Origin: Nitrospirota bacterium
Lineage (GTDB): Bacteria > JACPQY01
Assembly: GCA_016180645.1 (NCBI GenBank)
Contig: JACPAV010000007.1
Location: 62,001 to 126,000, forward strand
Length of the DNA: 64,000 nucleotides
Direction of reading: 5' to 3'
Below, piece after piece: positions 46,604 to 56,442 of the stretch. The position numbers and the translations under genes are program-made. Under the pieces are notes generated by a model. That model was not told the DNA's origin, searched no databases, and saw only the letters and a list, made by a program, of their open reading frames with translations. Positions within the stretch are counted from its first letter, which is position 1; every line of letters begins with the position of its first letter.

Positions 46604-47530
46604 TCACGGAGAGACGAAACTGAGGCTGGGCCCGAGCTCGACATTCAATTTGGTCCCGGCCGTGAGCATCTCGCCGTCCAGAATAAGGGGCTGCTCCTGC
46701 GGAGTTTCGATCTCCACCTTCTGCGTGATGTGTTCCCAGAATCGATCATCGGGAATAGGCATTCCGCGGTGGAGACGATAGAGGAAGCGAAAGTAATACG
46801 GCAGGGGGAAGCTGGCCAGGCGTAGATGAAAATGATGCGGTTTCTCGAGGGCGCGGGGCACGAGGAGAAAGCCGAGCGGGTAACGCGTGATCGTGCCGGC
46901 CAGGAGGGCGGTGAAGTGTTTCTCCGCGACGGGTCGTCCATCGACCTGAACCGCGGCTTCGAACGGCTCCGCGATCCAGCGGGCAAACTCCGATCCGGTG
47001 GCCACGGAGAGGGCCCCGCGGCCGATGATGCTCATGACCGTTCTGGCCGCCCCCCCACCTTTGTAGTACACGCTCATCAGCTTCGTTGCGAACCCGAGGC
47101 CGAACATGAAGGCAAAGTGCTCGTTCACTTTCAGCATCGGCCTTTCCACCGAATCGATCGGTTCATCGTGCCGGAGCTTGTGGACGAGGGCGCGAAGATA
47201 GGAACGTCCCATCCCGCGGAGTCCGAGGGCTGTAATGATCGTATTCATCGTGCCGCCCTTCACCAGGGCGAACAGGGGAAGAGGCCGCCCCTTCCATTCG
47301 TGAATGACGGTGGTGATCGTTTTCTGAATGGAGCCGTCTCCGCCGCAGATGCCGACGATCTCGCACTCGCGTCGCCGAAGGTCGGCGATGACTTCTTCAA
47401 GATGGGTGAGGTTCTCGCTGACGATGAAATCGCCGACGGGTTTCACGATCGACCGGTACCGGTACATCCTCCATGGGAATTTCCGGTTGCGCTTGGCCTT
47501 CGGATTGTAGATGAGGGCGAACCGTCTCAC
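46604..47530 (-). CDS. Diacylglycerol/lipid kinase family protein
   Basis: 308 aa. IYNPKAKRN at the start, GICGGDGSIQKTITT (Gly-rich GGDGS nucleotide loop), VKGGTMNTIITALG and a beta-rich C-terminal domain. Belongs to the DAGK/sphingosine kinase-like (YegS-type) family which phosphorylates lipid hydroxyls with ATP; substrate unknown. It converges with rluD and is divergent, 21 nt away, from a small nucleotidyltransferase. Confidence 0.88.
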   Translation of the reverse strand: MRRFALIYNPKAKRNRKFPWRMYRYRSIVKPVGDFIVSENLTHLEEVIADLRRRECEIVGICGGDGSIQKTITTVIHEWKGRPLPLFALVKGGTMNTIITALGLRGMGRSYLRALVHKLRHDEPIDSVERPMLKVNEHFAFMFGLGFATKLMSVYYKGGGAARTVMSIIGRGALSVATGSEFARWIAEPFEAAVQVDGRPVAEKHFTALLAGTITRYPLGFLLVPRALEKPHHFHLRLASFPLPYYFRFLYRLHRGMPIPDDRFWEHITQKVEIETPQEQPLILDGEMLTAGTKLNVELGPSLSFVSP

Positions 47531-47551
47531 GGATCGTTCTTAGCAAGGGGT

Positions 47552-47806
47552 GTGCGGCTTGACAAGCGGTTAGTTGTAGAACGAGTGGCGGTAACCGGCT
47601 CGCTGCTCCATCCGATGCGGTTCGGCTCAGGTTCGGACCTCGATTTGATCGTGTGGGGGTTGCCCAAGGGGAAATACCTGGAGGCCCTCGACCTTGTCTG
47701 GATGGAGCTGACCCCGCTTCTTGGGAAGGTCGGTCCGCTCGCCAGGCAAGCGGAGGCCGAGGTGACCTCCTTCCGGACATTCGTCCGCGCGCTGGCTTCC
47801 GACTGA
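47552..47806 (+). CDS. Small nucleotidyltransferase (MNT-type)
   Basis: 84 aa from GTG 47552, preceded by AAGGGG. VAVTGSLLHPMRFGSGSDLDLIVWG contains the G-S-x(n)-G-S-D-x-D metal-binding motif of the minimal nucleotidyltransferase fold. MNT proteins usually pair with a HEPN toxin and act as AMPylating antitoxins; here no adjacent HEPN gene is seen. It lies between the divergent lipid kinase and convergent XRE regulator, so it may be an orphan. Confidence 0.7.
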   Translation: MRLDKRLVVERVAVTGSLLHPMRFGSGSDLDLIVWGLPKGKYLEALDLVWMELTPLLGKVGPLARQAEAEVTSFRTFVRALASD

Positions 47807-47838: not shown

Positions 47839-48183
47839 CTAATGGCGCCTGCGCATGTTCAGAATGTTCCGCAGGATTTCCGAAATGGCAAGGGAATCGT
47901 CCGGAGAACAATGCTGGAGCATATCGTACACCTGCACGGAGGGATCCCGTTGAACTTTGGCTTCCACGGGCCAGGGGAAATTGAAGAGTTCTTTGGGAGA
48001 ACTGCCCAGCGCGTTGGACAGAGCTTCCAGCGCTTCCAATGAAGCCGATTTCCGCCCGCCCTCGATCGCGTTCACGTGGCTCCAAGAAAGACCGGCCTTC
48101 TCGGCCAGGCCTTCCTGAGTCATCCCCTTCAGCTTCCGCAGGCGCTGTATTCTTTTGCCGAGCGCCCTCCTGATCTTTCCCAT
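47839..48183 (-). CDS. XRE family helix-turn-helix regulator
   Basis: 114 aa from ATG 48183, with GGAGG 5 nt upstream; longer upstream reading in this frame is spurious. HTH_3/Cro-C1 domain at about 8-62 (GKRIQRLRKLKGMTQEGLAE, KAGLSWSHVNAIEGGRKSAS). The C-terminal 45 residues are helical. It is divergent, 208 nt apart, from the CsgG-like lipoprotein gene and is a candidate regulator of that exported-protein locus. Confidence 0.92.
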   Translation of the reverse strand: MGKIRRALGKRIQRLRKLKGMTQEGLAEKAGLSWSHVNAIEGGRKSASLEALEALSNALGSSPKELFNFPWPVEAKVQRDPSVQVYDMLQHCSPDDSLAISEILRNILNMRRRH

Positions 48184-48391
48184 CGGACCTCCATGTACCC
48201 TCCTGTAGACTGAATAGCCGACGAACCGGCGCGAGAACATATCCCAATAGGATGTACAATACACTTGACACATTCCCACGGGGTGTGTTACGAGGTCGTA
48301 AAACGCGAAGTAACCGCCTTGCAGGGAGGGAAACGTAGACCAAGGGAGAAATGGAATGCGGTTGGATTTACGCAAGCAAAGGAGGACACGA
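48184..48391. promoter_or_regulatory. Divergent promoter region of the XRE regulator and lipoprotein locus
   Basis: 208 nt. Contains TTGACA at 48265-48270 with a poor -10 17 nt later, on the plus strand; AT-rich TGTACAATACACTTGACACA around 48254-48273 may serve both directions and be an operator. ATG 48392 is preceded by AAAGGAGGACACGA. I could not define an inverted repeat with certainty. Confidence 0.4.
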
Positions 48392-49459
48392 ATGAACAAA
48401 TTCAGCGAAGGCGCGGGTCTCCGGTTCTGGATGCGGGCCGCAGGGGTGGCTGTTTTGTGGATGGGCTTTGCCGGTTGCGCGGCGACCCTGAAGGTGGCTC
48501 GCATGAAACCCGCGGAGATCAATCTCGCGGCATTCAAAAAAATCGCCGTGGCGGACATCACGGGTGAAGGCGGACAAGAAATTGCGGATACGATGAACCA
48601 GGCGCTGTTCGATTCCCAAAGATTCGAGGTCTTGGACCGGCAAAATCTTACCAAGATCATGAAGGAGCAGAATCTGGTGATCGGCGAAGCCTTCGATCCT
48701 TCCCAGTCGGTCCAGATCGGAAAGCTTTTGGGCAGTGCCGCGATGATCTTCGGCGGCGTGACGACGCGGAAGTACGACGAGAAGAAGACGTATGAGGACA
48801 AACAGTGCACCCAGGTGGTGGGCGGACAGACGGTTACGCGCCCGTGCCGCGTGTACACCGTCACGGGAACGTGGAACGTCAACATGGGGCTCAAAGTCGT
48901 CGATACGGCCACCGGCAAGATGGTGGCCACCAAGGCGTTCAAGGAACAAGACTCCAAGAAGGTGAGCGCCACGGACGCCGTCCCGGCGATTGACTGGGAC
49001 AAGGACGCCGTTTTCAGCGACATCCAGGGGAAAATTGTGGTCCAGTTCATGAAAGTGATCGCCCCCTACACGGAGATGGTGGACGTGGAGCTCTTCAAGA
49101 GCGGCGATCTGCCTGAGATGGAGAAAGGGATCAACTTCGGCAAGCGGGGTGAATGGGCGGATGCCATCGAGCAGTTCAGGACGGCCGTGGGCAAGGCCGA
49201 CAACGATCCGAAGATCAAGAACAGCCTTCGGGCCAAGGCTCACTACGATCTTGGAGTTGCCCTCGGATACAGCGGCCAGTATGACGAAGGGTTGAAGGAA
49301 CTCAAGAAGGCCAATGATCTCGAAGCCAGCGGGACTTTCGACAAGGAAATCGGACGGATCAAACAGTATAAGAAGGATGCGGAGAAGCTCAAGCAGCAGG
49401 GGGTGGGCGCCGAGTCCAGTTCCGTGCCTCCGCGCCCGAGATTCGTGGTGGCGGGGTGA
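48392..49459 (+). CDS. CsgG-like lipoprotein with TPR-like C-terminus
   Basis: 355 aa. Lipobox with Cys29 (FAGC). Residues about 45-205 match the CsgG/penicillin-binding-activator fold: FKKIAVADITGEGGQEIADT, FDSQRFEVLDRQNLTKIMKE, and SAAMIFGGVTTRKY. The C-terminal region (about 245-330: MEKGINFGKRGEWADAIEQF ... AHYDLGVALGYSGQYDEGL) contains two or three TPR-like helices. CsgG-like proteins form outer-membrane pores or periplasmic scaffolds. First gene of the exported-protein locus, opposite the XRE regulator. Confidence 0.85.
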   Translation: MNKFSEGAGLRFWMRAAGVAVLWMGFAGCAATLKVARMKPAEINLAAFKKIAVADITGEGGQEIADTMNQALFDSQRFEVLDRQNLTKIMKEQNLVIGEAFDPSQSVQIGKLLGSAAMIFGGVTTRKYDEKKTYEDKQCTQVVGGQTVTRPCRVYTVTGTWNVNMGLKVVDTATGKMVATKAFKEQDSKKVSATDAVPAIDWDKDAVFSDIQGKIVVQFMKVIAPYTEMVDVELFKSGDLPEMEKGINFGKRGEWADAIEQFRTAVGKADNDPKIKNSLRAKAHYDLGVALGYSGQYDEGLKELKKANDLEASGTFDKEIGRIKQYKKDAEKLKQQGVGAESSSVPPRPRFVVAG

Positions 49460-49463
49460 TCCG

Positions 49464-49691
49464 GTGACAACGTTGGGAAAGATCGGATTGACAGGCTGGA
49501 TCTCGGTGATGGGATTGTTTCTTGCGGCGTGCTCCGAGGATCCGTGCGACAAGGGCGCCTACAAGTGCGACGGAACGGTTCTCATGTACTGCGGCTCGGA
49601 CGAGTCGTGGTCGATCTCCAAGGACTGCGGTTCCGTCGGAAAGGGCTGCGCCTCCAAGTGCGCCTCAGGAGCGGCTTGCTGCATAGACTAG
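49464..49691 (+). CDS. Small cysteine-rich lipoprotein
   Basis: 75 aa from GTG 49464, 4 nt after the previous stop. Lipobox FLAAC, then eleven further Cys in about 45 residues (CDKGAYKC, MYCGSDE, DCGSVGKGCASKCASGAACC), probably five or six disulfides. Cys-rich lipoproteins of this type occur in deltaproteobacteria-like genomes; function unknown, possibly surface display. Confidence 0.75.
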   Translation: MTTLGKIGLTGWISVMGLFLAACSEDPCDKGAYKCDGTVLMYCGSDESWSISKDCGSVGKGCASKCASGAACCID

Positions 49692-49741
49692 CCCGGCGTA
49701 CGCGGCCAAAATCACCTCCGCGGTATGGCGCCTGACACAGT

Positions 49742-51214
49742 GTGTCACGCAATACCCTCCTTCAATCCCTATTAGGGGCTGCGGTCGGGCTGGCAACAGC
49801 TTGTGCCGCAGCCCAACCTGTGTGGGTCTCCACCAATATCCACCCGGTATTTTCCACGCGGGAATACGTAATCGGGGTGGGCGCGGCTCCGCACACGCGA
49901 AGCGAGGAAAATGATCTGGCCCAGGCCGACTCCAACGCCCGCACGGAGATCGCCAAGCAAGTCCAAATCCGCGTTGAAGAGGTCATGTCCACGCGCCAAC
50001 ACGAGGCAGCCAGGGGAGAGGTGCGGACCGGCTCCTACGAAGTTTCCGTCCGGTCTCAGGAAAGCGTGGGTCTCACGTTGGAAGGCGTGAAAATCGTTGA
50101 GCGGTCCTTCGACAAGAAAGCCGGGCAGCACTACGCGCTGGCGGTCTTGCCGCGGGTCAGCACCTCTATCCGTCTGGCCGATCAGGCCGCTCAGGGTTTC
50201 CGTCAAGCCAAGGCAGCTTTGCGCGAGTCCGCGTTGCTCATCGACTCCGGCGACGTCGTGGGCGCCGCGCGAAGGCTGATCCTCGCGTCCGATGTTTACG
50301 AGAAGGCGGTTGGCCACGAATTGGTTTCTTCCGTCCTCGGACAAACAGGTTCGTCGCCCGATCGGGGCCCACCTCCCTTTCCCACTCTCATGGACTTGGT
50401 GGACAAGACGAAACTGGAGGTCGGGGCGGGTGACGGACAGGCGGGTGTGGCCGGAAGCCCGCTCCCTCGACCCATCCGTGTGCGCGCGGTCTACGCGGGA
50501 GCGGTTCCAGTGGCGCGGTTGCCCCTTGCCGTGGAGGCGCCCTCCGACGCGGCAAGCATAGAGCCGGGGATCCGAACCAACGCGAACGGCGAGGCGGAAA
50601 TTCGGGTCCTCAACGTCAGGAAAACGGGTAGAAGCGTAAACTCCGTCCCCGTTCGGGTGGCTTGGGACGATCTGGTGCAGGAGAGTCTGGGAGGCCGGCC
50701 GCCGTCCTGGATGGGGCGGCTCGGAGGCGGAACGGTCGCCTTCAGGTATCGGCTGCGAACCAAATCGGAAACGAGAGTCTTGGTTCAGACCTGCGTCTCG
50801 CGGGAGGATCGCGTCGTGTCGGATACCGTTCTGTTGCCGCGGCTGATGGGTGAATTCAAGAAGGCTGGGTTCCAGGTCCTGGAAGCACCCGCTTCGTTGG
50901 GAGCATGGGGCGCATGCCCGAAACCGGATGATTTGAGTGCGCTCCGCGAGAGTTTCCGCGACAGGACCGATTTACTTGTTCTTGCCGTTGCCGCAACGTC
51001 CTTCGCGGGCGTGAGAGAGGCCGTGACCGTCCATCGCGCACACCTGTTCGCGGCGGCGTATGACCTGACCCGAGATGAAACCGTCGCCTCTCTCGAAGGA
51101 GAAGCCGCGGGAGGCGGGAACACACCCGAGCGGGCTGCCGACCGCAGCGTGAGGCAGGTGGCCGAAGACTTGGCGCCTGAACTGGTTCGGAAAGCCGTTG
51201 AAGGTCTGCGGTAG
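49742..51214 (+). CDS. LPP20-like lipoprotein with Ig-like and CsgG/TolB-like regions
   Basis: 490 aa, GTG start. Lipobox with Cys21 (LATAC). Residues about 26-140 (PVWVSTNIHPVFSTREYVIG, DSNARTEIAKQVQIRVEEVM, YALAVLPRVSTSIRL) match the LPP20 lipoprotein domain. Residues about 235-325 resemble an Ig-like/carboxypeptidase-regulatory domain (GIRTNANGEAEIRVLNV). The C-terminus (about 345-490) looks like a TolB-N/CsgG-like domain. The palindrome TGACAC-AGT-GTGTCA overlaps the start at 49733-49747. Located in the exported-protein locus; forms a complex with neighbours by inference only. Confidence 0.8.
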   Translation: MSRNTLLQSLLGAAVGLATACAAAQPVWVSTNIHPVFSTREYVIGVGAAPHTRSEENDLAQADSNARTEIAKQVQIRVEEVMSTRQHEAARGEVRTGSYEVSVRSQESVGLTLEGVKIVERSFDKKAGQHYALAVLPRVSTSIRLADQAAQGFRQAKAALRESALLIDSGDVVGAARRLILASDVYEKAVGHELVSSVLGQTGSSPDRGPPPFPTLMDLVDKTKLEVGAGDGQAGVAGSPLPRPIRVRAVYAGAVPVARLPLAVEAPSDAASIEPGIRTNANGEAEIRVLNVRKTGRSVNSVPVRVAWDDLVQESLGGRPPSWMGRLGGGTVAFRYRLRTKSETRVLVQTCVSREDRVVSDTVLLPRLMGEFKKAGFQVLEAPASLGAWGACPKPDDLSALRESFRDRTDLLVLAVAATSFAGVREAVTVHRAHLFAAAYDLTRDETVASLEGEAAGGGNTPERAADRSVRQVAEDLAPELVRKAVEGLR

Positions 51215-51293
51215 CAACCGGCATCGTCCTTCTTCCGCCGGGAGCTACTTTACCTCAAGGGCGTCGTTTGATATAAGGCGGATGGAGGTTACG

Positions 51294-51755
51294 GTGGGGA
51301 AAATAAACCGCTTGATCGTCCTCGCTCTCATCGCACTGTTCTGCGTTTCGTGGCCCGGCGCTGCCTTATCGGAGGAATCACCCAAGAAGTCGAAATCCGT
51401 TCTTGATGAAGCGCTTTCCAAGTGCCAGCTCATTCTCGACGGTCTGGAGAAGGGCGGAAAGGAAGAGCATCGTCGGACGTCGGTGATCGGCGTGCGCGCT
51501 GGAAAGCCGGCGGGCGCACAGGAACTCTCGGACGATCCCGAGATCTCCGCGCTCCAAAAACAACTCAAGTCGGCAGGTGAGGCCGCCGCCCGGTTGCGGG
51601 GCGCCGTGGAAGCGAGTTCCGATCCGAAGTTCCGCGCCGATGCCTACAAGGCCCTCAGTGATCTCTATGGCTCGATGGCTGAGGCGGAGAAGCAGATCGC
51701 CGAGAAAACGGGCGCCAAGAAACAACCCGCCGATGGAGAAAGTGGAAAGCCGTAA
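51294..51755 (+). CDS. Exported helical protein of unknown function
   Basis: 153 aa from GTG 51294, favoured by GGAGG 5 nt upstream (ATG 51282 is also in frame). Signal peptide about 1-25 (LIVLALIALFCVSWPGAALS). Remaining sequence is helical and charged (SVLDEALSKCQLILDGLEKG, LQKQLKSAGEAAARLRGAVE), so a coiled-coil adaptor is likely. Overlaps the protease gene by 23 nt, indicating co-translation. Confidence 0.75.
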   Translation: MGKINRLIVLALIALFCVSWPGAALSEESPKKSKSVLDEALSKCQLILDGLEKGGKEEHRRTSVIGVRAGKPAGAQELSDDPEISALQKQLKSAGEAAARLRGAVEASSDPKFRADAYKALSDLYGSMAEAEKQIAEKTGAKKQPADGESGKP

Positions 51756-52662
51756 CCGTTTCCTGCGTTCCTTCCTTCTGCTGGGATTCATTCTTCTTCC
51801 CGGGAGCGCTTTTTCGCTCTCCCCCAAGGAGATTTACAAGAAGTCGGCGCCGTCCGTGGTGGCGATCCTGTGCTATGACCTCAAGGGGAGCGGCACCGCC
51901 GGCTCGGGGTTTCTGATCGATGAGAAGAGCCGCGTCCTTACGAATGCGCATGTGGTGATCGGCGGAAAAGGCGCTCCCTACGAGAAGATCTGGGTGTACT
52001 TCAAGCCGGAATCGATCACGGGCAATCCCGACAAGGACCTTCGCAATCCGGTGAAGGCGAAGGTTGAACGTTTCGACGACAAGTTGGACCTGGCCCTGCT
52101 GTCGCTCGAAAGTCCCCCCGCGGGAAGTTCTCCCTTGGCCCTGGCCGATCCCTCCTCCGTGGAGATCGGCGACTACGTGGCCGCCATCGGCCACCCGGAG
52201 CAGGGCGGACTATGGACGCTGACCACGGGGACGGTGAGCACGGTGGTGGCGGACATGGAAGGGGTTCCCGGCAAGGACGCATTTCAGACGGAGGCCAGCA
52301 TCAATCGCGGCAATTCGGGTGGGCCTCTCTTGGACGAGAACGGGAACGTCATCGGGATTAACTCGCTGATCGTAAGGCAGGCCGCCGACGGGCTGGCCAT
52401 CACGGATGTCAATTTCGCGATCAAGTCCGGCGTGGCCCAGAAATGGCTCAACCAGGGCGGCCTGAACGTGGCCCTCACCCCAAAATCGCCTACGTCGGGA
52501 GAAGACCCGGCCTTCGTGAGGGCGGCGGCGTCCAAGGAGAAGATCACCACATCGAAGCAGCCGTTCCGCATCGAAACGGTGGTCGAGGCGCAACGAAAGA
52601 AAATCGAGAAAGAGATGTCCGACATGATGGACGAAATGCATCGAAGGGTCATCGAAGAGTAA
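51733..52662 (+). CDS. Trypsin-like serine protease (HtrA/DegP type, no PDZ seen)
   Basis: 309 aa from ATG 51733. Signal peptide about 1-28. Catalytic triad His73 (TNAHVV), Asp119 (LDLALL) and Ser195 (NRGNSGGPL). C-terminal third (about 250-309) is charged and helical, without the PDZ domain of DegP, so substrate recognition may depend on partners. Cleaves misfolded or specific envelope proteins. Lies between an exported coiled-coil protein and a DUF4384 lipoprotein; a functional link with the caspase-like protein of the locus is speculative. Confidence 0.92.
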   Translation: MEKVESRNRFLRSFLLLGFILLPGSAFSLSPKEIYKKSAPSVVAILCYDLKGSGTAGSGFLIDEKSRVLTNAHVVIGGKGAPYEKIWVYFKPESITGNPDKDLRNPVKAKVERFDDKLDLALLSLESPPAGSSPLALADPSSVEIGDYVAAIGHPEQGGLWTLTTGTVSTVVADMEGVPGKDAFQTEASINRGNSGGPLLDENGNVIGINSLIVRQAADGLAITDVNFAIKSGVAQKWLNQGGLNVALTPKSPTSGEDPAFVRAAASKEKITTSKQPFRIETVVEAQRKKIEKEMSDMMDEMHRRVIEE

Positions 52663-52675
52663 AGGAGGAATTCGA

Positions 52676-53794
52676 ATGAAGAGGAAACTATGGACCGGTG
52701 TGCTGGCTTGCGGCCTGGCCGGTCTGATCTTGTCCGGCTGCGCCGAACCCAAGCCAAAGCCTGATACGCGCGAGAAGGCCAAACGCTCCCACGATGAACT
52801 CGAGCAGGAAGAAGAGCAGATGAAGGAACGGAAAAAAGAAGGCTCGCGCGATCATTCGAGGCTGGAGGAAGCGGCCCCCCCCCGTGGGGAGGTTGCTTCC
52901 CTGGTCCCGGCCCGCCCGCAGGATGCGGAAGCGGTGCCGGAAGCGGCCAGGAAGGCCGACCCGGCCGCTCCCGCGGCCCCGAAACCAACGATGGCCGAGC
53001 CGTGCCGTTGGGTCGAGGCGGAGGGAGTCGTCGGGATGAGCGACCAGGACACACTCTACCAGGCGAAGGGCCGCGCGATTGCGGCGGCGCGGCAGGAGGC
53101 CATCAAGAACGTGCTCGGTTACGAAATCCGATCCCGCGATGCGGTTTTCCAACAAGAGTCGCTCCGGGGCGAGCAGACTTTGGTGGAAAGCCTCATCGTC
53201 AGCACGCAATACGGACTCATCCTCGATGAAGAGATTCTGGCGGCGGGACCCCTCCGGGATGGGGCGAAGTATCGCGCGAGAGTTCGAACGTGCATCGCTC
53301 GACAACCGGAGAGAATGGACAAGGGATTTCGCGTGACGTTGGGCCTCAATCGGCAGACGTTCGTGGAAGGGGACGAGGCGGTGGTGGATATGACGGTCAC
53401 GCGGGATTCCTGTGTGTATCTGCTGAACGTGGACACGATGGGGAACATGAGCCTGGTGTTTCCCAACTCCGTGGCATCCGGGAACTGCGCGGTGGCCGGC
53501 AAGTTCATCCAATACCCCGATGCCTCGCTTCAACGGAAGGGTGTTCACCTGACAGCGGTCTTGCCTCAGGGGACGAGGACCTCAACCGAAACGTTGAAGA
53601 TTATTGCCTTCAAGACGAAAATGGATCACTTGTTCTCCGATTCCCCCCCGGCCGTTGCATCGACAATCAACGTGAGTTTCGAGCGGCGAGAGCAACACAA
53701 CACCGGGGCCTACGGCGACTTGGTTCGGAAGCTTGTCCTCGATGACGTCGAGTGGGTCGAAGATTCCGCCGCTTTTGTCATCCACGCGAAGTGA
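52676..53794 (+). CDS. LPP20-like/DUF4384 lipoprotein
   Basis: 372 aa; AAAGGAGG upstream. Lipobox Cys22 (LSGC). A charged coiled segment (about 30-65) and Pro/Ala-rich linker lead to an LPP20-like region (about 108-205: WVEAEGVVGMSDQDTLYQAK, RAIAAARQEAIKNVLGYEIR) and DUF4384 (about 222-300: FRVTLGLNRQTFVEGDEAVV, YLLNVDTMGNMSLVFPN). DUF4384 is often fused or adjacent to caspase-like (C14) or kinase domains, consistent with the caspase gene 1.1 kb downstream. Outer-membrane or periplasmic lipoprotein; function unknown. Confidence 0.85.
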   Translation: MKRKLWTGVLACGLAGLILSGCAEPKPKPDTREKAKRSHDELEQEEEQMKERKKEGSRDHSRLEEAAPPRGEVASLVPARPQDAEAVPEAARKADPAAPAAPKPTMAEPCRWVEAEGVVGMSDQDTLYQAKGRAIAAARQEAIKNVLGYEIRSRDAVFQQESLRGEQTLVESLIVSTQYGLILDEEILAAGPLRDGAKYRARVRTCIARQPERMDKGFRVTLGLNRQTFVEGDEAVVDMTVTRDSCVYLLNVDTMGNMSLVFPNSVASGNCAVAGKFIQYPDASLQRKGVHLTAVLPQGTRTSTETLKIIAFKTKMDHLFSDSPPAVASTINVSFERREQHNTGAYGDLVRKLVLDDVEWVEDSAAFVIHAK

Positions 53795-53831
53795 CGTTGC
53801 GGGTGTGGGAGGCCGGTGCTAATCTTTGGGT

Positions 53832-53921
53832 GTGGGAAAGATCGTCAGGAACCTGACCCTTACAAGGGACAAGGGGAGCGCCAAATTTGAATGTCTGCTG
53901 GACTCAGGGGCCGGCGTCTAA
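53832..53921 (+). pseudogene. N-terminal fragment of a clan AA (retropepsin-like) aspartic protease
   Basis: 29 codons from GTG 53832 to TAA: GKIVRNLTLTRDKGSAKFEC then LLDSGAGV. Clan AA aspartic proteases begin similarly, with an initial strand followed by an A-x-x-D-[ST]-G-A catalytic motif; here LLDSGAG then stops abruptly. The rest of the gene (about 80-100 residues) is missing. Probably a remnant left by insertion of the nuclease gene that starts 10 nt later. Confidence 0.55.
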
Positions 53922-53930
53922 GGTACTACC

Positions 53931-54431
53931 ATGAGGAAGCGGCGGGCGCCCTACAAAGCCGATCGGGTGAAAGCGCAGATCACCGAAATCCGCGAGCGGG
54001 TTGCGTACCTGACCGACGGATGGGGGCGATTCGTGGAAGGATTGGTCCAGCCGTGCGTGCCGGAGTTGTTCAAGACATTGGGGATTGAGCTTTCCGAGAC
54101 GGCCGAAAGCCGGAAGAAGCACAAAGACGACGACACCCTTGAGGTGGACGTATTGGCCGTGGGAGACGAGCACGTGGTGGCCGTGAGCGTTAAGACAACC
54201 CTATCGAGGAAAGATGATGTGGACGACCTTGAAAGGGACCTTGGACGTTTTTTTGACTTCTTTCCCGAGTACCGGGGCAGGAGACTACTCGGCGCCATGG
54301 CGGGAATCACTGTAAGAGGCGGGGTGGACCGCTACGCCGAAAGCAAGGGATTTTATGTCCTCACTCCCGCTGGCCATGCGATGAAACTCGCCAACTCCAA
54401 AGGCTTCAAGCCCAGGGTCTGGAATGCGTAG
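53931..54431 (+). CDS. PD-(D/E)xK nuclease superfamily protein (DUF3782-like), altered active site
   Basis: 166 aa. VKAQITEIRERVAYLTDGWGRFVEGLVQP is the usual helical N-terminus of DUF3782-type proteins, and DDDTLEVDVLAVGDEHVVAVSVKTTLSRKDDVDDL corresponds to the nuclease core. In active members D-x(n)-E-x-K is present; here the E position is Ser (VSVKT), so it may be catalytically dead. Family members are widespread mobile genes. The C-terminal 48 residues are duplicated at 54642-54785. Confidence 0.75.
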   Translation: MRKRRAPYKADRVKAQITEIRERVAYLTDGWGRFVEGLVQPCVPELFKTLGIELSETAESRKKHKDDDTLEVDVLAVGDEHVVAVSVKTTLSRKDDVDDLERDLGRFFDFFPEYRGRRLLGAMAGITVRGGVDRYAESKGFYVLTPAGHAMKLANSKGFKPRVWNA

Positions 54432-54640
54432 TATGGCGATCTTCCTCGCGCGTTCCCCGGCCGGTAGCCGCACCCTTTATGGGTGCGTCTTCAGGCGCGC
54501 TGGGCGCAGGCATAAAGCCTGCGGCTACCTCGCGCTCTTAATGTCGGCGGCCGTGGCCACAGGCTGTGCGCATCCCAAACCCATCCTGGACGACACCCGC
54601 CAGAGGACACGCGATGAACCCGGACGCTACCGACTACACT
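54432..54640. other. Scrambled stretch: palindromic repeat plus orphan lipoprotein signal
   Basis: After the nuclease gene come the repeat 54463-54529 and, in one frame, LALLMSAAVATGCAHPKP from about 54532 (possible start ATG 54541), a good lipoprotein signal peptide with lipobox but without its protein: the frame passes into the duplicated nuclease fragment region out of register and ends at 54669. Read as a truncated lipoprotein gene. Confidence 0.45.
54463..54529. repeat. GGTAGCCGC palindromic repeat
   Basis: 9-bp ends GGTAGCCGC (54463-54471) and GCGGCTACC (54521-54529). Inside, CGCACCC-TTTAT-GGGTGCG and CGCAGGC-ATAAA-GCCTGCG form two hairpins. Same two-hairpin plan as the GTAGGGG family but with different arms. 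Confidence 0.75.
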
Positions 54641-54641
54641 T

Positions 54642-54785
54642 CTCGGCGCCATGGCCGGGATTACAGTGAAGGGCGGTGTGGACCGGTACGCAGAGAAGAA
54701 AGGGTTTTACGTGCTGACCCCCGCCGGAAATGCCATGAGAATCGCGAACTCCAAGGGCTTCAAGCCGAGAATATGGGCCGGGTAA
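54642..54785 (+). pseudogene. Duplicated C-terminal fragment of the DUF3782-like gene
   Basis: 48 codons reading LGAMAGITVKGGVDRYAEKK then GFYVLTPAGNAMRIANSKGF and KPRIWAG before TAA. Nearly identical to the last 48 residues of the gene ending at 54431 (LGAMAGITVRGGVDRYAESK ...). The N-terminal two thirds are missing. Divergence of a few residues shows the duplication is not brand new, or that it came from a sister gene. Confidence 0.8.
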
Positions 54786-54906
54786 CTTCCGGACCGGTCG
54801 GCGTGGACCCCGAGGTGATTGAAATCGCGTGAGGGCCATGAAACTCTCAACTCCCATGGAGTCTGACCCGATGCCCACAATGTACATGAGCAATGGAGGA
54901 TTTCGA

Positions 54907-56442
54907 GTGGGTCGCTTGACGGCGAGGTTGCTGAAACGAGGGAAACTTCTTCAATTCCTCTTGGTGGTAACGATGTTCGGTAGGGTGGAGTACGTTCTCA
55001 GCGATGACAGCGGCAAGCCCTCGTGGGTGGAACGCGGCAGCGGGGCGTTCGTTGTTGCCGGTCAGAAGATATTCTACGGCGTAGGCGTAGTAGAGGGCAT
55101 CAAGAACGCGAATATGGCACAAAAAACGGCTGAGAACAGGGCTCGTGCTGAACTCGCGAAAGTGAGCGAGAGCTATTCGGCATACCTCATGAGGAGGTGG
55201 GATCAAGTCTTGTCGGAGTACGGACAGTTCTCTCTCAGAAGAGGTCTTGAGGAAGCAATTCAGACCGCGTTCACTCAAGCGATTGCCGATGCGAAAATCG
55301 TGGATCGGTGGCAGGCAAATGAAGATGACGGTTCCGTGTGGGGTACGATAAAGAAGTCTCCCGTGTACGTGTTAACGGGTTTCAGTTTGGACGACGTACA
55401 GCGGTATGCGGCCAAGGAGTTCAATCGGTTGCTACTGTTTTCCAGCGAAAACCGAGAGGGTGCCAAGGGCCTTGGGAAGCAGTGGGACAAAGCTTTCTCC
55501 GAGCTTCTCAAGGTGGATGCTGCACACAGGTTGACCGGGGAGTCTCATGTCGGTGAAGGCGAGTTCACCACTCCTGCGTCCCCGCAGTCATCCTCAGCAC
55601 TGCGTGCACAAACGAGCGCGATCACCCCGGTCGGATCTGAAGTCGACTCCCCACCTGGAGTTCGCGTGAAGGCGGCTGGCTCGTTCTGGGCGCTTATTGT
55701 GGGGATCGAACACTATCCGAGTCTGCCTGCGGTCGATTTTGCACAACAGGATGTGACCGCCATCAAGCAGTACCTGACGACCACCATGGGATTCCCGGAG
55801 GAAAACGTTGTTATGCTCACTGACTCCAATGCGACGAAATCCGGAATCCAGAAGTACTTGAACGAGTGGCTGCCGCGCAATACGAACGCGAAGTCGCGCA
55901 TCCTGATCTTCTTTGCCGGTCATGGCGCGCCGGAAACCGAAACAGGAGACGCGTATCTTGTCCCGTATGACGGCGATCCCAATTTCCTCAAGACCACGGG
56001 AATCCTTCTCAAGGACTTCTACACGGCCATCGAGGCTCTTCCGGCCAAAGATGTCATCGTATTGACTGATGCCTGCTTCTCAGGCGCGGGCGGCCGTTCG
56101 GTGCTGGCCAAGGGTGCGCGACCACTCGTGACGAAGGTTGACACCGCCCTGCCCCCGAGCTCCAAGATTCTCTCCATCGCCGCCGCTTCCGGCTCCGAGA
56201 TCACCGCCTCTTACGAAGAAAAGGGGCACGGACTCTTCACGTATTTTCTTCTCAAGGGTTTGCGAGGCGATGCGGACAAAGATCAGGACGGGTGGGTGAC
56301 GGTGGCCGAGGCTTACGACTACCTCAAGCCGAACGTCCAGAAGATGGCCCGGCGGCAAAACCGCGAGCAGACGCCACAACTGCTCCCCGGCCTCGATGCG
56401 CTTGGGGTGAAAGCCAAACTGAAACTGGCCAAGGTGAAGTAG
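54907..56442 (+). CDS. Exported caspase-like protein (C14) with N-terminal LPP20-like domain
   Basis: 511 aa from GTG 54907, preceded by GGAGGA (in-frame ATGs upstream lack such a site). N-terminal signal/anchor (LLQFLLVVTMFGRVEYVLS), LPP20-like region (about 38-160: PSWVERGSGAFVVAGQKIFY, AENRARAELAKVSESYSAYL), linker (210-255), then the caspase p20-like domain (about 260-420): WALIVGIEHYP, catalytic His339 in IFFAGHGAP and Cys390 in VLTDACFSGAGG, followed by IAAASGSEITASYEEKGHGL and a small C-terminal p10-like part. Metacaspase-like proteases cut after Lys/Arg. The export signal is notable because most bacterial caspase-like proteins are cytoplasmic. Last complete gene of the locus. Confidence 0.88.
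   Translation: MGRLTARLLKRGKLLQFLLVVTMFGRVEYVLSDDSGKPSWVERGSGAFVVAGQKIFYGVGVVEGIKNANMAQKTAENRARAELAKVSESYSAYLMRRWDQVLSEYGQFSLRRGLEEAIQTAFTQAIADAKIVDRWQANEDDGSVWGTIKKSPVYVLTGFSLDDVQRYAAKEFNRLLLFSSENREGAKGLGKQWDKAFSELLKVDAAHRLTGESHVGEGEFTTPASPQSSSALRAQTSAITPVGSEVDSPPGVRVKAAGSFWALIVGIEHYPSLPAVDFAQQDVTAIKQYLTTTMGFPEENVVMLTDSNATKSGIQKYLNEWLPRNTNAKSRILIFFAGHGAPETETGDAYLVPYDGDPNFLKTTGILLKDFYTAIEALPAKDVIVLTDACFSGAGGRSVLAKGARPLVTKVDTALPPSSKILSIAAASGSEITASYEEKGHGLFTYFLLKGLRGDADKDQDGWVTVAEAYDYLKPNVQKMARRQNREQTPQLLPGLDALGVKAKLKLAKVK

Follow-up and report, generated by a model that had tools for sequence, protein, structure and literature searches.

Gene content and layout

The window analysed here is a 64,000-nucleotide stretch from a Nitrospirota bacterium (contig JACPAV010000007.1, assembly GCA_016180645.1), and its positions 47,839 to 56,442 hold a locus of apparently exported lipoproteins and proteases. 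We tentatively read this locus as an extracytoplasmic protease module with a two-part core, which would consist of a caspase-fold protease and a partner, both of them exported, the partner carrying an SHS2-type (FlgT_N/LPP20) domain followed by DUF4384. On the plus strand, six exported genes are tightly packed, encoding a CsgG-TPR lipoprotein, a Cys-rich lipoprotein, an LPP20 protein, a coiled-coil protein, a trypsin-type protease and the DUF4384 lipoprotein; this run is followed by a scarred gap and then by the exported caspase, with a divergent XRE-family regulator at the left (Table 1). Only 4 nucleotides (nt) separate the CsgG stop from the Cys-rich start, the coiled-coil and trypsin-type genes overlap by 23 nt, and the DUF4384 gene follows 13 nt after the latter.

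Pfam matches to the helix-turn-helix (HTH) of the XRE family, CsgG, LPP20, Trypsin_2, DUF4384 and Peptidase_C14 show that the gene list of an earlier sequence-only reading of this DNA is real. Its claim of export also agrees with the signal or lipobox sequences that are visible: judging N-termini by eye and with a hydrophobicity scan, the proteins appear to be exported, and we infer an outer-membrane location. Starts in Table 1 were refined from the sequence for the regulator (48183, on the minus strand), for the CsgG, trypsin-type and caspase genes and, approximately, for the Cys-rich and coiled-coil genes. Between DGK and the regulator, an open frame on the plus strand (window 47525-47806) carries a nucleotidyltransferase-like GSGSDLDL motif and has no Pfam match.

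Table 1. Genes and other features of the locus, in window positions
Feature	Position	Strand	Evidence and remarks
XRE-family HTH regulator, 114 amino acids (aa)	47839..48183	-	Pfam HTH_3 6.3e-13; tied to the operon by position alone
CsgG-domain lipoprotein, C-terminal TPR region, 355 aa	48392..49459	+	Pfam CsgG 2e-13, TPR_2 1.7e-5 (weak); lipobox GFAGC
Small Cys-rich lipoprotein	49464..49691	+	LAAC lipobox read from sequence; no Pfam family match
LPP20 protein, 490 aa, N-terminal LPP20 and weakly CsgG-like C-terminal domain	49742..51214	+	Pfam LPP20 2.2e-11
Exported coiled-coil protein	51294..51755	+	Signal sequence; Shine-Dalgarno before GTG 51294; no Pfam family match
Exported Trypsin_2-family serine protease, no PDZ, helical C-terminus	51733..52662	+	Pfam Trypsin_2 1.4e-28, whole model
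Lipoprotein, FlgT_N/LPP20-like (SHS2-type) domain then DUF4384 immunoglobulin (Ig)-like domain	52676..53794	+	Pfam DUF4384 2.6e-8
PD-(D/E)XK-like open reading frame (ORF)	53931..54431	+	No Pfam match; weak PADLOC CARF_PDDEXK 0.003
Palindromic element, 25-nt arms, 84% complementary	54463..54529		80% similar piece in sister genome, L085 8222-8283
Lipoprotein N-terminus remnant, sister WD40-caspase type	54524..54669	+	ATGCAHPKPILDDTRQRTRDE vs AAGCAQPRPVLDETRQRARQADE in G001
Degenerate second copy of the 3'-terminal part of ORF 53931-54431	54638..54776	+	139 nt, 77% identical; 133 nt, 80% in a second comparison
Exported caspase (C14), N-terminal LPP20-like domain	54907..56442	+	Pfam C14 1.5e-17; ribosome-binding site GGAGG before GTG 54907

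The encoded proteins and their recurrence

The caspase had been described from the sequence as a caspase-like protein with a signal sequence, and both its Pfam match, which covers residues 287-518 of the 537-aa ORF, and its predicted fold bear out the caspase assignment. The domain matches metacaspase 4 (Z 24.2, 220 aligned residues, root-mean-square deviation (rmsd) 2.6), and MALT1 is recovered by Foldseek at 8e-13. The His/Cys dyad is intact (H339/C390). All matches listed in the fold search were to the caspase domain, and we therefore relied on sequence evidence for the N-terminal domain. Over 115 aa, this domain has 48% identity with a lipoprotein whose gene lies on contig C6 (L046) of the window's own genome and which scores above the PF02169 LPP20 cut-off. 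The suggestion that the caspase carries an LPP20-like domain of its own is thus upheld indirectly, the domain itself having no direct Pfam LPP20 match. Elsewhere in this genome (G000 contig C53, L042 11297-15620), a second exported-looking caspase stands beside proteins that by eye look like FecR-type and CHASE2/adenylate-cyclase-type proteins.

The predicted structure of the DUF4384 lipoprotein has a mean predicted local distance difference test score of 67, with values mostly of 79-92 in the ordered segments of the part that precedes DUF4384. Residues 111-208 within it match FlgT (3w1e) by a clear margin over all others (Z 9.0, rmsd 2.1, 71 aligned), and H. pylori Tip-alpha, a reported structural homologue of Lpp20, is also among the matches of this region. 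Relatives of the protein give weak Pfam FlgT_N matches that fall under the cut-off. The region had been called LPP20-like; an SHS2-type domain is indeed present, and FlgT_N/SHS2 is the better name for it. The DUF4384 domain itself resembles an Ig-type sandwich, with Z 7-8 to many such folds.

Only one of the genomes that we compared, G001, shares the phylum of the window's genome; it matches the metagenome-assembled contig JACPQY010000060.1, labelled 'Nitrospirae bacterium'. This sister genome encodes a DUF4384 protein (47-50% identical) and then a caspase (71% identical in C14), the N-terminus of which consists of a lipoprotein signal and WD40 repeats. The gap upstream of the window's caspase contains an ORF, a duplicate of its end, a palindrome and a remnant (GCAHPKPILDDTRQRTRDE) that resembles the WD40-caspase N-terminus of G001, none of which figured in the sequence-only account. 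The remnant lies upstream of the caspase and beside the duplication and the palindrome. The simplest reading of these sequences is that the N-terminus was replaced, the lipoprotein/WD40 start being lost and the LPP20 domain gained. The PD-(D/E)XK-like ORF is probably an insertion that stands outside the system, and the palindromic element is possibly a dispersed repeat.

Neighbouring genes were counted within 10 kb in 241 genomes, with G000 and G001 excluded, against the expectation for random placement in a 3.3-Mb genome with contig breaks ignored. DUF4384 lies near C14 in 29 of 99 matches (about 1.5 expected; 16 genomes, some of these neighbours being fusions inside one protein) and near CHAT in 16 of the 99 (0.9 expected), while LPP20 lies near CsgG in 10 of 71 (0.6 expected). 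These counts are lower bounds, because the C14 scan of the 241 genomes missed the window's own caspase, which a single-genome scan found. The DUF4384-C14/CHAT and LPP20-CsgG associations recur in unrelated genomes, and the complete set is seen only here.

Scanning 84,980 species genomes with the caspase gave 18 loci. DUF4384 or CsgG is encoded nearby at six of them: G001, Nitrospirae (L068), Desulfaltia (L069), a deltaproteobacterium (L080), Flexithrix (L082) and Calditrichota (L084). In the Nitrospirae, Desulfaltia, deltaproteobacterial and Calditrichota genomes, genes for an exported caspase or CHAT protein and for DUF4384 are closely spaced or overlapping, and SHS2- or CsgG-DUF4384 proteins are encoded about 0-60 nt from a caspase or CHAT gene at L049, L052, L053, L062 and L063; the DUF4384 gene of L062 is upstream, matching the order in the window. 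Spacings in relatives are approximate since gene calls there are longest-ORF guesses. A few genomes join both groups of families, among them G227 (several exported caspases, CHAT, LPP20, CsgG and DUF4384), G095 (CsgG-DUF4384, TPR-CHAT, CsgG-TPR and LPP20) and G166 (LPP20-DUF4384 adjoining a caspase). On contig C1 of G227 (L047-L048), several exported caspase-domain proteins and CHAT proteins form an array with LPP20, CsgG, DUF4384 and exported coiled-coil proteins. Five consecutive LPP20-like proteins precede a TPR-CHAT protein on contig C4 of G054 (L050 6689-15011).

On Rhizobium leguminosarum plasmids, an exported protein fuses trypsin, caspase and DUF4384 domains, its caspase part having a QC pseudo-dyad (FSGQG and DACHVG). 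The cluster that holds it (NZ_CP050110.1, L090 8262-18012) also encodes a DUF4384-TPR-OmpA protein, an exported caspase and a serpin, all of which have signal-like N-termini as the fusion does, and in addition a Ser/Thr kinase. Coverage of the fusion reaches 80% or more in 88 plasmid records. Proteins of trypsin-QC caspase-DUF4384 architecture have been published for Alphaproteobacteria (PMC6426788); with the Rhizobium cluster, they link trypsin, caspase and DUF4384 in at least one other lineage.

Among the remaining genes, the 490-aa protein passes the LPP20 (PF02169) cut-off (44.5 bits against 25.9) and shares its architecture with proteins at L040 17360-18901 and L050 9752-11956. The sequence-only reading had treated CsgG as a fold related to LPP20; profile-profile comparison of the two families gives a probability of 0.3%, no detectable similarity, and we rejected this kinship, although the C-terminus of the 490-aa protein is weakly CsgG-like (hhalign E 2.4e-4, probability 44%). 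The proposed sharing of an LPP20 module is mostly upheld in its other parts, by the 490-aa protein and the caspase N-domain, with the DUF4384 lipoprotein better placed with FlgT_N/SHS2. The CsgG-TPR architecture is also found in relatives from L040, L041, L052 and L056. On contig C6 of the window's genome (L046 7332-10572), one run of genes encodes an LPP20 protein, a large lipoprotein and an LpoB (NCBIfam TIGR02722 6e-32).

The trypsin-type protease has a complete triad (H73/D119/S195), as claimed. Calling it HtrA-like is too strong because the PDZ domain is absent (no match in Pfam up to E 1); against NCBIfam degP_htrA_DO it scores 111 bits, below the cut-off of 416.

Readings of the locus

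We favour, with reserve, a core of caspase and SHS2-DUF4384 partner because the co-localization of DUF4384 with C14/CHAT and of LPP20 with CsgG exceeds expectation, because the sister genome keeps DUF4384 followed by a caspase and close pairs recur elsewhere, because the DUF4384 partner has a FlgT-N fold and the caspase an LPP20-derived N-domain with a remnant scar, and because the Rhizobium operon joins trypsin, caspase and DUF4384. Most likely, the locus is a lineage-specific assembly around this recurrent pair, and it probably encodes an outer-membrane-anchored envelope-stress protease system, with a function and a co-assembly that we infer. The DUF4384 lipoprotein may anchor or gate the caspase at the outer membrane, and the CsgG-TPR and LPP20 lipoproteins could make a scaffold in which SHS2 rings form by analogy with FlgP and FlgT. 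The caspase would dock there by way of the LPP20 domain that it gained in place of the sister's WD40 propeller, and the neighbouring trypsin-type protease would be a likely activator or co-protease. Envelope damage is the putative trigger and limited cleavage of envelope proteins the putative outcome.

Several observations weigh against this reading. The caspase lies 475 nt from the next gene, beyond the scar, and for these reasons may not be co-transcribed with the operon. The full gene set occurs in this genome alone, and for 12 of the 18 close relatives of the caspase, neither DUF4384 nor CsgG was detected nearby in the stretch examined. The site in G001 that matches the window (patatin, RluD, DGK) is without the island, and its DUF4384 and WD40-caspase genes sit elsewhere; we therefore rejected conservation of the full locus in relatives, the sole sister genome lacking it. 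No Trypsin_2 gene lies within 10 kb of C14 or DUF4384 among the matches listed for 31 other genomes, a set picked for carrying these families or being the sister, and on those matches we rejected the trypsin-type protease as a member of the conserved core. Ring formation by FlgP hinges on a hairpin insert, and the ring parallel drawn here is an analogy. The idea of a single envelope machine, as the sequence-only reading had it, accordingly survives in its apparently exported parts, its common SHS2-type modules and the sub-sets that adjoin beyond chance, and finds no support in conservation of the full set in the sister or, among the matches listed, in adjacency of the trypsin-type gene.

A serious rival, which we regard as quite possible, is that the locus is a mosaic whose envelope genes are in part unrelated: an operon running from CsgG to DUF4384 beside a caspase that arrived independently, in which at most caspase and DUF4384 cooperate and the rest serves general envelope maintenance. 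The scar, duplicate and palindrome that separate DUF4384 from the caspase would fit such a history, as would the empty sister site, the trypsin-type gene not being kept as a neighbour (among the matches listed) and the LPP20 gene beside LpoB elsewhere in the same genome. It accounts less well for DUF4384 and caspase adjoining both in the sister genome and across several phyla, for an LPP20 domain on the caspase as on its neighbours, and for the fusion of trypsin to caspase-DUF4384 in Rhizobium.

An outer-membrane secretion or ring apparatus, with a CsgG pore or a FlgT/FlgP-like ring and proteases for processing or quality control, seems improbable. The CsgG domain, the FlgT-N fold and the SHS2 ring precedents (PMC12222027) speak for it, but the CsgG match is limited to profile positions 23-159 of 210 with a TPR C-terminus, no curli substrate is seen among the neighbours and no flagellar genes are among the annotated ones.

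We give slightly less credence still to an anti-phage or programmed-lysis system in which infection or envelope injury would activate the trypsin-type protease, then the caspase and finally cell death. Known defence systems do include caspases and trypsin-type proteases; here the caspase fits a PADLOC caspase model (3e-20), the trypsin-type protease gives weak matches to the protease components of defence models, and the divergent XRE gene and nuclease-like ORF are close by. Signal sequences, however, would put the proteases outside the cytoplasm, and the PADLOC matches are to generic protease domains, with no complete defence system found in a scan of this part of the genome.

Returning to the caspase and SHS2-DUF4384 core, a broader proposal, which we consider speculative and on balance unlikely, is that such loci represent widespread undescribed extracytoplasmic caspase systems. 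In these, an exported caspase or CHAT protease would be anchored and gated at the outer membrane by an SHS2- or CsgG-DUF4384 lipoprotein, the caspase N-terminus would exchange one sensor or docking domain for another (WD40, ankyrin or LPP20), and some lineages would add a trypsin-type initiator and a serpin inhibitor to give a periplasmic two-protease cascade.

The swapped N-domain, WD40 in the sister and LPP20 here, leads us to hypothesize that the docking domain sets which envelope scaffold recruits the protease. Bacterial caspase-type proteases are usually treated as cytoplasmic death effectors. A conserved exported caspase that has an envelope partner of its own would place regulated caspase-type cleavage outside the cytoplasm, and DUF4384 and SHS2/LPP20 lipoproteins would gain a testable role.

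Comparison with known systems

The component families are already known; neither the exported caspase/SHS2-DUF4384 pair nor the LPP20-caspase seems to have been described in the searchable literature, where our search found no paper matching LPP20 with CsgG or exported caspase with lipoproteins, an absence that is no proof. The CsgG/LpoB-type outer-membrane lipoproteins resemble the first gene product of the run in their CsgG domain and lipoprotein signal, whereas here a C-terminal TPR region replaces the rest of CsgG.

FlgP, Lpp20 and FlgT share an SHS2 fold, and FlgP forms rings (PMC12222027). These envelope proteins are like the present ones in the first-domain fold of the DUF4384 partner (FlgT) and in the LPP20 sequence family; here, by contrast, DUF4384 or a caspase follows such a domain in the same protein.

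The Rhizobium leguminosarum plasmid cluster is alike in having exported caspase, trypsin and DUF4384 within one gene run. It differs in its serpin, kinase and OmpA anchor, in the fusion of trypsin to a pseudo-caspase, and in having no LPP20 or CsgG among its proteins scanned.

The bacterial orthocaspases with DUF4384 (PMC6426788) share the combination of caspase and DUF4384, with a trypsin-type protease tied in. Unlike them, the window's locus encodes caspase, trypsin-type protease and DUF4384 as separate exported proteins and retains the catalytic dyad, with an SHS2 domain on the DUF4384 protein and LPP20 and CsgG lipoproteins added.

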